NCBI GenBank assembly: GCA_947631015.1 | Contig: CANRJS010000012.1 | Location: forward strand, 1-51,467 | Reading direction: 5' to 3' | DNA: 51,467 nucleotides | Source of the DNA: an uncultured Clostridia bacterium | Lineage (GTDB): Bacteria > Bacillota > Clostridia > Oscillospirales > JAAYOS01 | Shown: piece after piece, positions 8,901-47,741 of the stretch | Layout: the number at the start of each line of letters is the position of its first letter | Numbering within the stretch: position 1 is the first letter of the stretch | Position numbers and translations under genes: made by a program | The notes under the pieces: generated by a model | Seen by the model: only the letters and a program-made list of their open reading frames with translations | What the model was told of the DNA's origin: nothing | The model's database searches: none

Positions 8901-9215
8901 ATGCCAAAGGATCATCTTCTCTGCGGTAAAACGGAAATAATCGCAACTCAGCTTATGGGCAACCAGTGGCGGCAGGTCTCCGCCCGCGCCGACAGGATAA
9001 AAAGCATTCGCTTCGACTATGTTGACACCAGAAAGCTGCTGCTTTTTAAGGGGCGCGACGAGCGCATCACGGTCGAGGTGAGCGGCGGTATGCCGGTGAC
9101 CTTCCTCCGCTCCGCCGAAAAGGGCTATTTTGACGAATACAAGGAGCGCCTCCGCGAGTTTGCATACAATAATAAGATAACTTTCCATGACGACGTAGTT
9201 TCCCAAACGGTCTAA
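8901..9215 (+). CDS. Small protein of unknown function
   Basis: I do not recognise this 104-residue protein. It is soluble, with alternating beta-like strands (IKSIRFDYVDTRKLLLFKG; ITVEVSGGMPVTFLR) and a final helix DEYKERLREFAYNN, an arrangement loosely like small bacterial PH-like domains. ATG 8901 is preceded by AAAAGGAG 9 nt upstream and by a good promoter; the upstream in-frame ATG has no ribosome site. The last four codons and the stop codon (SQTV-stop) form the left arm of the first hairpin of the array at 9202-9680, so the 3' end of its mRNA is that hairpin. Confidence 0.7.
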   Translation: MPKDHLLCGKTEIIATQLMGNQWRQVSARADRIKSIRFDYVDTRKLLLFKGRDERITVEVSGGMPVTFLRSAEKGYFDEYKERLREFAYNNKITFHDDVVSQTV

Positions 9216-9680
9216 AGACCGTTTGGGAGCCCTTTCAATTGAAATGCTCGGGGCAAATGAATTGCCCCTGCGCGAAGTTAGCGGCTTCGCCGCTAACTTC
9301 AACCGCGCGAACTGGCGCGGAAAACGGTCTGAAAGACCGTTTGGGAGCCCTTTCGATTGAAATGCTCGGGGCAAATGAATTGCCCCTGCGCGAAGTTAGC
9401 GGCTTCGCCGCTAACTTCAACCGCGCGAACAGGCGCGGAAAACGGTCTGAAAGACCGTTTGGGAGCTCTTCCAATTTAAATGCTCGGGGCAAATGAATTG
9501 CCCCTGCGCGAAGTTAGCGGCTTCGTCGCTAACTTCAACCGCGCGAACAGGCGCGGAAAACGGTCTGAAAGACCGTTTGGGAGCTCTTCCAATTTAAATG
9601 CTCGGGGCAAATGAATTGCCCCTGCGCGAAGTTAGCGGCTTCGCCGCTAACTTCAACCGCGCGAACTGCGCGGAAAACGA
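9202..9680. repeat. Tandem array of four 118-bp hairpin units (locus B)
   Basis: Four near-identical units have a constant 118-bp period; the conserved ATGCTCGGGG lies at 9244, 9362, 9480 and 9598. Each unit contains four inverted repeats: AAACGGTC/GACCGTTT; GGGGCAA-ATGAA-TTGCCCC; GAAGTTAGCGGC-TTC-GCCGCTAACTTC; and CCGCGC/GCGCGG. Units 1-2 have GCCCTTTC and units 3-4 GCTCTTCC in the linker, so the array seems to have grown by duplication. Unit 3 has a single C-to-T change in the third stem. Open frames across the array are artefacts of the repeat. Related single units with other stems occur near 13.9, 20.4-20.7 and 31.1 kb. Confidence 0.95.
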
Positions 9681-19281: not shown

Positions 19282-20016
19282 ATGGACAAGTCCAAGCGTA
19301 TCGACCTCATAGACGCGGCGCGCGGCCTCGCCATACTACTTATGGTAATACACCACGCCCTGTATGACGCGGTGTATTTTCTCGGCGCGCCGAGCTGGTT
19401 CTTTTCGAACCCCGTCTTTACCCCGCTCAGCCGGTTCTTCGAGGTAGTGTTCATACTTCTGAGCGGCGCGAGCTGCCGCTTCTCGCACTCGAACATACGG
19501 CGCGGGCTGATTTTCCTCGCGGGAGCGGCGGCGGTGAGTGTTGTCACGTATTTCATAGGAAACCCCGTGCGGTTCGGGATACTGCATCTTCTCGGCTCTG
19601 CGGCGGTGGGCTTCGGGCTTTGGCAGAAAATAAGGGCGCGGATGCGCCTGCCGCAGGTCTCACGCCGGACGGCGGACATCCTCCGCGCGGCGCTCATAGT
19701 CTGCTGCGCCGCGGCGTTCGCGCTGCTCTGGAATCCTGTATACCACCACGTCTACGACTTCAGGTGGTTCGGATGGCTCGGATTTACCTACGAGGGCTAT
19801 TTCTCGAGCGACTGGTTCCCCGTCCTGCCGTGGATATTCGTCTACATCGCGGGGAACGCCGTCGGGCTGTGGATAGTCGAGGGGCGCTTCCCCGAGAAAT
19901 TCTATACGACGAAGGTGCCGTTCCTCGCGGCGGCGGGACGGCACACACTCTGGATATACCTTCTGCACCAGCCGGTGCTGTACGGGATAACAATATTAAT
20001 CGCGGCAAATAGGTAG
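19282..20016 (+). CDS. DUF1624-like (heparan-alpha-glucosaminide N-acetyltransferase-type) membrane protein
   Basis: A 244-residue protein with about seven membrane helices. The start RIDLIDAARGLAILLMVIHHALYD is characteristic of the DUF1624/acyltransferase-3-like superfamily, where the conserved His in the first helix is thought to take part in acyl transfer across the membrane. The end WIYLLHQPVLYGI is also typical. The substrate is unknown. ATG 19282 follows TTTAAGGAG. The last four codons and the stop are the left arm of a perfect 25-bp palindrome (20001-20053), so the transcript ends in a very strong hairpin. Confidence 0.82.
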   Translation: MDKSKRIDLIDAARGLAILLMVIHHALYDAVYFLGAPSWFFSNPVFTPLSRFFEVVFILLSGASCRFSHSNIRRGLIFLAGAAAVSVVTYFIGNPVRFGILHLLGSAAVGFGLWQKIRARMRLPQVSRRTADILRAALIVCCAAAFALLWNPVYHHVYDFRWFGWLGFTYEGYFSSDWFPVLPWIFVYIAGNAVGLWIVEGRFPEKFYTTKVPFLAAAGRHTLWIYLLHQPVLYGITILIAANR

Positions 20017-20735
20017 GGCGCGGATTTTATCCGCGCCCTACCTATTTGCCGCGAGAAGTTCACTTGGAATTGCGCAAGCGCAATTCCAAGTGAAGCTGTC
20101 GGATAGGGCGAAGCCCTACCGACAGCATGCGCTCCGCTTCGCGCCGAGTTTTCCGCCTTCGGCGGAAAATCGACGCACGCTCCGCGAGAGGAGTAAATTT
20201 CGCCGTACATGCCGCCGAAATTTACTGATTGGAATTCTTTCGCGGCACAGCCGCGAAACTCTGCGAGGCGCGCGGAAATGGGCGCAGCCAAATTCTGTAC
20301 TATGTTCGGCTTTGCCGCTTACGGCAAAGTTCACGAGGGCTGAATATGTTCCGATGAGGAACGTGTGGGCGCCCTTGTGTTCGGGAGCGAGCATTTCAAT
20401 TGGAGGGGTCACCAAATGGCGCTCTGCGCCGTTCCGCCCAACAATGCGCTCAAAGTCGGGCAATATTTGCAAAGCAAATATTGCAAGCGAGGGCTGTACA
20501 ATGTCGGATGAAGAATTGGTTCGCGCCCTCGCGGTTCGCAGCGGTTGAAGTTAGCGGCTTTGCCGCTAACTTCGCGCAGGGAAGTCATATCAATGTCCGG
20601 CTTTGCCCGCGAAGCGGGTAAAGCTCACGAGGGCTGAATATGTACCGATGAAGAATTAGTGGGCGCCCTCGTGTTTGCCCCGAGCATTTTAATTTAAGGG
20701 GTCCCCAAGCGGCGTGAAACGCCGCTTGGGTATTC
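20001..20735. repeat. Large hairpin mosaic (locus D)
   Basis: About 720 bp without a gene. In order: perfect 25-bp stem 20001-20025/20029-20053; 16-bp stem 20059-20074/20079-20094; GCTGTCGG-A-TAGGGC-GAA-GCCCTA-CCGACAGC (20095-20126); TTTTCCGCC-TTC-GGCGGAAAA (20149-20169); 11-bp stem 20192-20202/20216-20226 with a 13-nt loop; TTTCGCGGC-ACA-GCCGCGAAA (20238-20258). Then come three inverted-orientation modules. Their central stems are CTTTGCCG/CGGCAAAG (20310-20329), GCAATATTTGC/GCAAATATTGC (20460-20484) and CTTTGCCCGC/GCGGGTAAAG (20601-20623). Also present are a locus-B-type stem GAAGTTAGCGGC-TTT-GCCGCTAACTTC (about 20547-20573) and a closing AAGCGGCG/CGCCGCTT hairpin (about 20706-20729). Bases 20736-20819 hold nothing recognisable. 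Confidence 0.92.
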
Positions 20736-20819
20736 CGATAATGCCGTCCCATTGTGAAAACCGCCTAACTTGCTGAGTTTCCCGACGTTTTTTTGTACAT
20801 AAAAATTATCCCTTCCCTA

Positions 20820-45885: not shown

Positions 45886-47325
45886 GTGGCGGACAAGAAA
45901 AAGCTCGTTGAGGCGATAACCTCGCGCGACGTTGACTTCGCGCAGTGGTACACCGACGTCGTGACGAAGGCCGAGCTTATTGACTACTCCCCGATAAAGG
46001 GCTTCACGATAATGCGCCCGTACGCGTGGGCCATATGGGAAAACATCCAGAATCTCTTTGACGCGGAGTTCAAGCGCACCGGGCATGAGAACGTCTCGAT
46101 GCCCCTGCTCATACCGGAGAGCCTGCTTCAGAAGGAGAAGGACCACGTCGAGGGCTTCGCGCCGGAGGTGGCGTGGGTCACTCACGGCGGCGAGGCGAAG
46201 CTCGAGGAGCGGCTCTGCATCCGTCCCACGAGCGAGACGCTGTTCTGCGACCACTTCTCCCGCGTCGTGCAGAGCTACCGCGACCTGCCCAAGAAGTACA
46301 ACCAGTGGTGCTCGGTCGTGCGCTGGGAGAAGACGACGCGCCCGTTCCTGCGCGGCCGTGAGTTCCACTGGCAGGAGGGTCACACCCTCCACGAGACCCG
46401 CGAGGAGGGCGAGCAGGAGACCCTGATGATGCTCGACATCTATGCCGACATCGCGGAAAACGCGCTCGCCATGCCGGTCATAAAGGGACAGAAGACCGAG
46501 TCGGACAAGTTCGCCGGCGCGGAGGCGACCTACTGCATCGAGAGCATGATGCACGACGGCAAGAGCCTCCAGGCGGGCACGACCCACTTCTTCGGGGACG
46601 GCTTCTGCCGCGCCTACGACATACAGTACACCGGCCGAGACAACAAGCTCCATTATCCGTTCCAGACCTCGTGGGGCGTCTCGACACGCCTCATCGGCGG
46701 CATCATCATGACCCACGGGGACGATAACGGACTGCGCCTGCCGCCCGCCGTTGCGCCGATACAGATCGTCGTCGTGCCGGTGGCGACGCACAAGCCCGGC
46801 GTCATCGAGGCCGCTGAGGCACTCGTCGAAAAGCTCGCGGCCGCCGGCATCCGCGCGAAGGGCGACTTCTCGGATAACAGCCCCGGCTGGAAGTACGCCG
46901 AATATGAGATGAAGGGCGTGCCGCTCCGCCTCGAGATTGGTCCGCGCGACATCGAGAACGGCGTCTGCATGGCCTCGAAACGCACCGGCGGAGAGAAATT
47001 TGCGATACAGCTCGACACTGCGGCGGAGGGCGCAAAAGCCGCCCTTGACGATGTACAGCGCGAGCTCTACGAGCAAGCGCTTCAGAACCGCGCGAGCCGC
47101 ATTTACACAGCAAAGACCCTCGAGGAAGCGGCGGAGAAGGTACAAAACCGCATGGGCTTTGTGAAGATGATGTGGTGCGGGGACGAGGCGTGCGAGGACG
47201 CCGTCCGCGAGAAGGTCGGCATCCAGAGCCGCTGCATCCCGTTCGAGCAGGAGCAGGTCGGCGACGTATGCCCGGTCTGCGGAAAGCCCGCAAAGCATAT
47301 GGTGATCTGGGGGCAGTCGTATTGA
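45886..47325 (+). CDS. proS: Prolyl-tRNA synthetase, archaeal/eukaryotic type
   Basis: A 479-residue class II synthetase. The length and the C-terminal zinc-type domain (MWCGDEACEDAV ... DVCPVCGKPAKHMV, ending in Tyr) identify the ProS type common in archaea, eukaryotes and many Clostridia, which lacks the bacterial editing insertion. Motif 2 is CSVVRWEKTTRPFLRGREFH and motif 3 GVSTRLIGGIIMTHGDDNGL. The start is GTG 45886, with AAAGGAG 9 nt upstream. Its transcript runs into hairpin mosaic F. Confidence 0.96.
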   Translation: MADKKKLVEAITSRDVDFAQWYTDVVTKAELIDYSPIKGFTIMRPYAWAIWENIQNLFDAEFKRTGHENVSMPLLIPESLLQKEKDHVEGFAPEVAWVTHGGEAKLEERLCIRPTSETLFCDHFSRVVQSYRDLPKKYNQWCSVVRWEKTTRPFLRGREFHWQEGHTLHETREEGEQETLMMLDIYADIAENALAMPVIKGQKTESDKFAGAEATYCIESMMHDGKSLQAGTTHFFGDGFCRAYDIQYTGRDNKLHYPFQTSWGVSTRLIGGIIMTHGDDNGLRLPPAVAPIQIVVVPVATHKPGVIEAAEALVEKLAAAGIRAKGDFSDNSPGWKYAEYEMKGVPLRLEIGPRDIENGVCMASKRTGGEKFAIQLDTAAEGAKAALDDVQRELYEQALQNRASRIYTAKTLEEAAEKVQNRMGFVKMMWCGDEACEDAVREKVGIQSRCIPFEQEQVGDVCPVCGKPAKHMVIWGQSY

Positions 47326-47326
47326 T

Positions 47327-47741
47327 TTCGCGGCGAATCGCGCTCGCTTCGCTCGCTTACCAATTCGCCGCGAAGCTGTCGGACAAGGCGCAGCCTTGCC
47401 GACAGCATGCGCTCCGCTACGCGCCGAGTTTTTTGCCTTCGGCAAAAAATCGACGCGCGCTCCGCGAGAGGTATTTTTCCCGACGTACACGCCGCCGGGA
47501 AAAATGATTTGACTCTATTTGCCGCCTTCGGCGGCGAACTCTGCGAGGCGGACGATTCTCGCGCGGAAGCGCGAGAATCGAAATACGGGTTCTCTGACTT
47601 TTCAGAAGCTGCGCAAGGTGATGGATTCTTCCCCCGCGCGGAAGGTTCCACATGGAACATCCTCCCGACGTGAACAGGCGCGGCGGCAGCCGCGCGAAAC
47701 AACAGAATACCCCTATACGCCCGACGAAGTCGGGCGTATAG
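47327..47741. repeat. Hairpin mosaic (locus F)
   Basis: Begins 2 nt after the proS stop. 12-bp outer stem 47327-47338/47363-47374; GCTGTCGG-A-CAAGGC-GCA-GCCTTG-CCGACAGC (47375-47406); TTTTTTGCC-TTC-GGCAAAAAA (47429-47449); 10-bp stem 47473-47482/47496-47505 with a 13-nt loop; GCCGCC-TTC-GGCGGC plus GAACTCTGCGAGGCG (47521-47550); 12-bp stem 47553-47564/47569-47580. Then come the parS-like palindrome (47644-47659), GCGCGGC/GCCGCGC (47678-47695) and a 13-bp stem 47713-47725/47729-47741. Linkers match locus D nearly base for base while the stems differ. Confidence 0.93.
47644..47659. promoter_or_regulatory. Degenerate parS-like palindrome before mfd
   Basis: GGTTCCACATGGAACA differs from parS by a G-to-A in the central CACGTG and at the first base. 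Binding by ParB is uncertain. Confidence 0.45.

Follow-up and report, generated by a model that had tools for sequence, protein, structure and literature searches.

A five-hairpin gene-end repeat of an uncultured Clostridia bacterium with stems exchanged at orthologous sites

The bcr1 repeat of the Bacillus cereus group is chromosomal and intergenic, about 150 bp long and present in tens of copies, and it combines a conserved fold with traits of a mobile element. It is listed in PMC2267715, citing Okstad et al. (2004). Together with the REP/BIME sequences and the selfish MRSC-65-2 motif, bcr1 is the closest known kind to the repeat reported here. REP/BIME sequences, associated with RAYT, are extragenic palindromes occurring many times per genome, with a conserved bulge or mismatch and a possible role in mRNA (PMC3733652, PMC8266576). 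Higgins et al. (1988, as cited in PMC8266576) had already put forward gene conversion for REP sequences. The MRSC-65-2 motif, as characterized in PMC11109978, is found in dozens of copies per genome, shows strong covariation, and was judged to be selfish and possibly relevant as DNA. Palindromic repeats of Volvox organelles and double-hairpin elements of fungal mitochondria have also been described (PMC2670323, citing Paquin et al., 2000).

The present repeat shares features with each of these. Compared by description alone, it resembles bcr1 as an intergenic, chromosomal multi-copy repeat with a conserved fold, but the organism is unrelated, and the listing of bcr1 reports no stem exchange at orthologous sites. 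With REP/BIME it has in common the number of extragenic palindromes and the conserved mismatch or bulge in the stem. However, a REP is a single hairpin of 20–40 nt with a GTAG or CGTC tag, whereas five hairpins with linkers, at least about 176 nt, are found here; neither tag is a conserved end in the element alignments, and the Y1 transposase of the REP/RAYT system was not detected in the genus. Many copies per genome and strong covariation recall MRSC-65-2, which as portrayed in its source consists of a single long stem carrying a UYCCGG repeat instead of several hairpins, and is given there without an analysis of orthologous sites. The organelle repeats are similar in their recurrent short loops, varying stem lengths, nesting and spread in non-coding DNA, but are organellar, shorter and without a linker scaffold. 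Finally, template switching within a hairpin (PMC8794818) likewise keeps both arms complementary by simultaneous change; it acts inside one hairpin and moves no stem between loci. The unusual part of the present case is the wholesale exchange of stems at one site between species with approximately 95% identical flanks.

Architecture, copy number and distribution

The element was found in a 51,467-nucleotide stretch of DNA, the whole of which was analysed and is called the window. Its loci D and F are two of about 100 copies of one element in a 1.9-Mb uncultured Clostridia genome. The element is about 180–230 nt long and consists of hairpins A to E, conserved linkers between them and the 3' end CTCTGCGAGGC (Table 1).

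The alignment of locus D (20095-20270) with locus F (47375-47550) covers 176 nt and has zero net length change. Stem sites differ at 29 of 84 positions (35%), with changes on both arms, and the hairpin preceding each locus is wholly different (TTCACTTGGAATTGCG... at D, TTTCGCGGCGAATCG... at F). The sequence-only reading from which the analysis started had linkers and loops kept base for base and the differing stems fully complementary. The first part applies to the linkers, the tail and the loops of hairpins B, C and D (5/75 sites differ), but not to the spacer between hairpins D and E (7/11) or to the E loop (3/3). The second applies to hairpins B, C and D, perfectly paired in both loci except at fixed bulge or mismatch positions; hairpin E, which also differs between the loci, contains one G-T pair in the locus F copy.

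Hairpin D keeps a 7-nt loop (YRCAYGY-like), a CG/CG closure and a mismatch position (usually A.C), and hairpin B keeps a bulged A. In locus D, CCGTACATGCCGC comprises the one mismatch and then the CG/CG closure round the 7-nt loop. The stop codon of the upstream gene (20014-20016) lies within the 5' arm of the first hairpin. Compared with shuffled sequence, the fold of 215 nt around locus D gave z = -9.1 (as RNA) and that of 231 nt around locus F z = -7.1 (as DNA). In the predicted fold of locus D, linker 1 pairs with the tail region and closes a junction round the hairpins, which suggests that the linkers may not be simply single-stranded.

Table 1. Features of loci D and F and adjoining modules (window coordinates)
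Feature	Position	Strand	Remarks
First hairpin, locus D	20002..20052	+	24-bp perfect stem, 3-nt loop; from sequence
Hairpin A, locus D	20059..20094	+	TTCACTTGGAATTGCG CAAG CGCAATTCCAAGTGAA; from sequence
Hairpin B, locus D	20095..20126	+	3-nt loop GAA, conserved bulged A
Linker 1, locus D	20125..20148	+	GCATGCGCTCCGCTTCGCGCCGAG; predicted pairing with tail in junction
Hairpin C, locus D	20149..20169	+	TTTTCCGCC/GGCGGAAAA
Linker 2, locus D	20170..20190	+	TCGACGCACGCTCCGCGAGAG
Hairpin D, locus D	20192..20226	+	stem AGTAAATTTCG/CGAAATTTACT round CCGTACATGCCGC
D-E spacer, locus D	20227..20237	+	not conserved
Hairpin E, locus D	20238..20258	+	TTTCGCGGC/GCCGCGAAA
Invariant 3' tail, locus D	20259..20269	+	CTCTGCGAGGC
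D+E module, locus D	20187..20270	+	covariance-model match, 79 bits
Modules of other families downstream of locus D	20271..20800	+	e.g. GTTGAAGTTAGCGGC..GCCGCTAACTTCGCGCAG
Hairpin A, locus F	47327..47374	+	starts two bases past upstream stop codon (47323-47325)
Hairpin B, locus F	47375..47406	+	
Hairpin C, locus F	47429..47449	+	TTTTTTGCC/GGCAAAAAA
Hairpin D, locus F	47473..47505	+	ATTTTTCCCG/CGGGAAAAAT round ACGTACACGCCGC
Hairpin E, locus F	47518..47538	+	TTTGCCGCC/GGCGGCGAA
Invariant 3' tail, locus F	47539..47549	+	CTCTGCGAGGC
D+E module, locus F	47467..47550	+	covariance-model match, 85 bits

A BLAST-type search of the own genome returned 62 matching pieces, and a covariance model (R1) of the 85-nt D+E module found 102 at E <= 0.01, of which about 65 were strong; the family is therefore not confined to the copies first seen. 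With the same model, similar copy numbers were obtained in three of the four other species of the genus and zero modules in the fourth, G003, where the flanking genes are about 80% identical. Across the order, the D+E module, which is the 3' part of the element, was present in 23 of 245 genomes, mostly from one family (f13) and the own genus; it recurs in scattered Oscillospiraceae-related genomes, and the named carriers are genomes of Oscillibacter, Flavonifractor, Papillibacter and Avoscillospira.

The repeat had at the outset been assigned to no described class, and this assessment stood. At the gathering score no Rfam family matched in the window or in the modules at ten loci belonging to other genera, and searches of open-licence literature, including that on Oscillospiraceae, turned up neither the family nor stem exchange at orthologous sites, a weak negative given that scope. 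Rfam matches at low threshold were mostly microRNA models placed on perfect hairpins and were judged to be chance. The malK-I RNA (RF03069) was found on an Oscillospiraceae contig (L113:472-656), away from and unrelated to the repeat. No similar DNA was present among 50,697 phage and 72,556 plasmid records, and the matches of a 14-base loop pattern in viral contigs were all without the tail. No terminal inverted repeat was apparent in the element alignments.

Exchange of stems at orthologous sites

Sister species of the genus allow the element to be compared site by site. For genomes G000 and G001, 21 orthologous pairs with flanks 88–99% identical could be parsed. In the D stem both arms had changed in 13 of the 21 pairs and one arm alone in three; the figures for the E stem were 13 and two. 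The earlier observation that arms change as units thus extends from two loci of one genome to the same site in sister species. At several sites just one of hairpins D and E had changed. Differences amounted to 28% in the D arms, 22% in the E arms, 6.5% in the loop and 0.9% in the tail; the value for the linkers (25.9%) is inflated by fixed windows laid across indels and was set aside. All 13 changed D stems fall into five recurrent types (AAATTTCG, TTTTTCCG, TTTTCCCG, TTTCGGCG and TTTTTGCC).

The extent of the swap varies by site, from D alone or E alone to everything. All hairpins differ between near-identical flanks in the pair L023/L235. In L018/L224, E and the spacer are exchanged alone, A to D being unchanged except for single bases, while in L015/L221 hairpin A and the outer part of B differ and C to E are identical except for one base. 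Tract boundaries lie in conserved linkers, with some inside a loop, where they result in a mismatched chimeric hairpin; in L019/L225 the upstream linker bases and the D 5' arm differ, leaving such a chimera. At the site of locus D, G004 has the unique 3' junction in common with G000 and different hairpins, G001 carries a nested mosaic, and G002 is without the element, the single case of an element-free orthologous site.

The first hairpin at this site (orthologues L277, L278 and L279) also varies between species: it is near-identical in G001, G002 and G004 and has a different stem in G000. As the stop codon lies inside this exchanged hairpin, the last codons and the stop codon of the protein change with it. 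Ordinary hairpins adjoining the element are mostly 90–100% conserved at the same sites; those with poor conservation are for the most part modules from the other repeat families.

Pairing is also maintained across distant genera, in support of the first reading of the two loci. In an alignment of 33 diverse copies, including distant genera, double changes occur at 16 of the 22 pairs, and 106 double-change cells were counted compared with about 32 in shuffles and 7–25 with the partners slid. Among approximately 1,810 stem pairs there were 10 G-U pairs (0.6%) and 15 A-C mismatches, whereas tRNAs from the same loci had 35 G-U in 437 pairs (8%), in a control whose tRNA finder itself disfavours A-C. 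Since G-U is as rare as A-C, unlike in the tRNAs, the stems behave as Watson-Crick palindromes without the G-U tolerance typical of RNA.

Association between segments was expressed as bias-corrected Cramér's V for 96 modules (D and E) and 33 full-length copies (B); values for hairpin C were disregarded, its arms being badly parsed. V reached 0.81 (95% interval 0.74–0.90) for the two D arms and 0.79 for the two E arms; for the D 3' arm against the E 5' arm it was 0.00 (bootstrap up to 0.29). The outer arms of B, 20 nt apart, gave 0.90, and the outer and inner parts of one B arm, 2 nt apart, 0.51. Linkage tracks pairing more than distance. Mixed-arm D stems are a minority of the 93 parsed. In stem B, the outer part occurs in new combinations with the inner part, and the two arms remain matched throughout.

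Gene-end position and origin of the mosaic

Naive ORF calls were unusable for orientation and were replaced by calls from a codon model trained on 12 genes of the window. None of 117 copies lies inside a called gene. Of these copies, 92 share their strand with the upstream gene and 23 lie opposite to it (p = 6e-11); for the downstream gene a strand bias is absent. In other genera, 31 of 35 copies are in sense and four in antisense orientation. The D module most commonly starts 136–153 nt past the stop codon, so that hairpin A begins a few bases from it. Because of this sense position behind stop codons, the element is putatively transcribed, and a transcribed 3'-UTR structure is its likely candidate role. 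If transcribed, it would be a structure shared by the 3'-UTRs of about 100 genes and would add a new feature to the gene ends of common gut bacteria. A scan with strict criteria detected intrinsic terminators downstream of 10 of the 117 copies, and no copy (0/117) had a terminator-like site inside the element. In most copies the 5' arms of A to E are T-rich and the 3' arms A-rich, which is opposite to the arrangement in an intrinsic terminator, whichever strand is read.

We favour, with a probability of roughly 0.6, a mosaic gene-end repeat in which ectopic recombination or template switching exchanges hairpin modules among dispersed copies, and selection or templated correction keeps the pairing. 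Each hairpin would be an exchangeable module bounded by conserved linkers, and linker-bounded segments would be copied from other copies of the family by ectopic gene conversion or by template switching during replication. Stems would thereby be swapped as units, with linkers, loops and the neighbouring genes left in place. Imperfect chimeras would stay rare because selection favours a perfect stem or because templated (quasipalindrome) correction repairs them. Exchange between copies is suggested because changes come in blocks, stem types recur, boundaries fall in conserved segments and chimeras exist. The exchange itself is shown; recombination as its agent is inferred from this mosaicism, no donor–acceptor event with long identical tracts having been traced. 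A second, pairing-restoring force appears to be needed because of the long-term covariation, the rarity of mismatches and the reassortment within stem B. The latter is unpredicted by simple tract exchange, so that correction or stepwise compensatory change must contribute. Selection for pairing, or a mechanism rewriting both arms together, had been offered as explanations on first inspection. The arms do change together, but the new stems are mostly pre-existing recurrent types; with boundaries in linkers or loops, it is simpler to suppose copying from other copies than a device for rewriting the two arms.

The repeat, with about 100 copies in each genome and close sister species, is a natural system for counting stem exchanges at individual sites. 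Whether perfect palindromes stay complementary by selection, gene conversion or template switching, a question usually argued from slowly evolving RNA genes, becomes testable here. It is also a warning: block exchange between repeat copies can yield covariation and so inflate the evidence for RNA function.

The claim, made from the two loci, that ordinary repeats never behave in this way was too strong, as conserved loops with covarying stems are the normal signature of structured RNA. A functional 3'-UTR RNA whose stems change pair by pair through compensatory substitution would account for the order-wide covariation, the conserved 7-nt loop and mismatch or bulge positions, the sense orientation at gene ends and the deep predicted fold. 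Of the features expected from structured RNA, covarying stems are found, but G-U pairs are not tolerated above A-C mismatches and such intermediates are nearly absent; their rarity does not favour selection on RNA, while the gene-end sense position does. Moreover, between flanks about 95% identical, most D changes comprise 3–5 bp on both arms simultaneously and lead onto recurrent types. Because of these block changes we consider ordinary RNA evolution unlikely as the sole cause.

Templated rewriting, in which one arm serves as the template for the other during template switching (quasipalindrome correction) and selection plays no part, is a process known to create and maintain hairpins (PMC8794818). 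Near-perfect Watson-Crick stems without a preference for G-U would follow from it, as would an association between arms that exceeds that between adjacent bases of one arm. It cannot explain why a few stem types recur at many sites or how loop and spacer variants come to be swapped along with the stems, and is unlikely as the whole explanation. Loop inversions, the best signature of template switching, numbered 74 among 1,616 differing pairs in an oriented count made without a null; we make no claim from them.

A dedicated, structure-guided process could swap whole hairpins between copies, cassette-like and acting on secondary structure instead of sequence, each gene end receiving one of a few interchangeable stems. 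It would predict an association that peaks between pairing partners and not between neighbours, as was found. We regard such a process as improbable.

Movement of a REP-like element by a Y1 (RAYT/TnpA_REP) transposase that recognizes the hairpin, with repeated insertion and loss behind stop codons, appears very unlikely. The distribution is patchy across the order, with one congeneric species lacking the module, presence and absence alternate between species at locus D, and the conserved mismatch of stem D resembles REP bulges (PMC8266576). However, partial swaps retain part of the old copy, and none of the genus's five genomes matched Y1_Tnp (PF01797) at E <= 1e-5, with 5 of 14 control genomes positive. 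The missing detectable Y1 transposase speaks against a REP/RAYT system working now; a past or unrelated transposase could still have been involved.

The genome assemblies are for the most part fragmented (20–220 contigs for the own and sister genomes, at least two of them apparently metagenome bins) and may contain misjoined short repeats, but that short-read assemblers joined different copies is highly improbable as the explanation: independent assemblies agree (G001, G002 and G004 have a common variant against G000 in the first hairpin of locus D), other kinds of hairpin at the same loci are mostly conserved, and the D+E module occurs in Papillibacter cinnamivorans DSM 12816, Flavonifractor sp. 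An10 and Oscillibacter sp. MSJ-31, which are not labelled as bins.

Neighbouring repeat families

The modules downstream of locus D (20271..20800) recur at many loci of the genome with exchanged stems. In many copies of the element a second and a third repeat family follow past the tail (L018, L205, L022 and window positions 20480-20600) and show the same behaviour. Their scaffold reads GTTCGCGCGGTT-stem-GCGCAG..CGAGCATTTCAATC..GGGCTCCC-stem, with AAGTTAGCGGC, AAGTTGCTTGCC and AAATTCGGCGC as exchanged stems. A hairpin repeat at positions 9205-9679 of the window, with four tandem copies, a period of 118 bp and 96% match (GAAGTTAGCGGC..., GGGGCAAATGAATTGCCCC, CCAAACGGTC...), is related to the modules downstream of locus D but in reverse orientation.

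A further module, GTCGGGACGTCGGCGC..GGTTCGAGGGCGCATTG, is located inside hairpin D, where it replaces the 5' arm (L107:1276-1382, L201:9529, L049:2319, L043 and L208). These occurrences suggest a nested insertion at a fixed site. The copy in L107 is flanked by GTACAA/TTGTAC.
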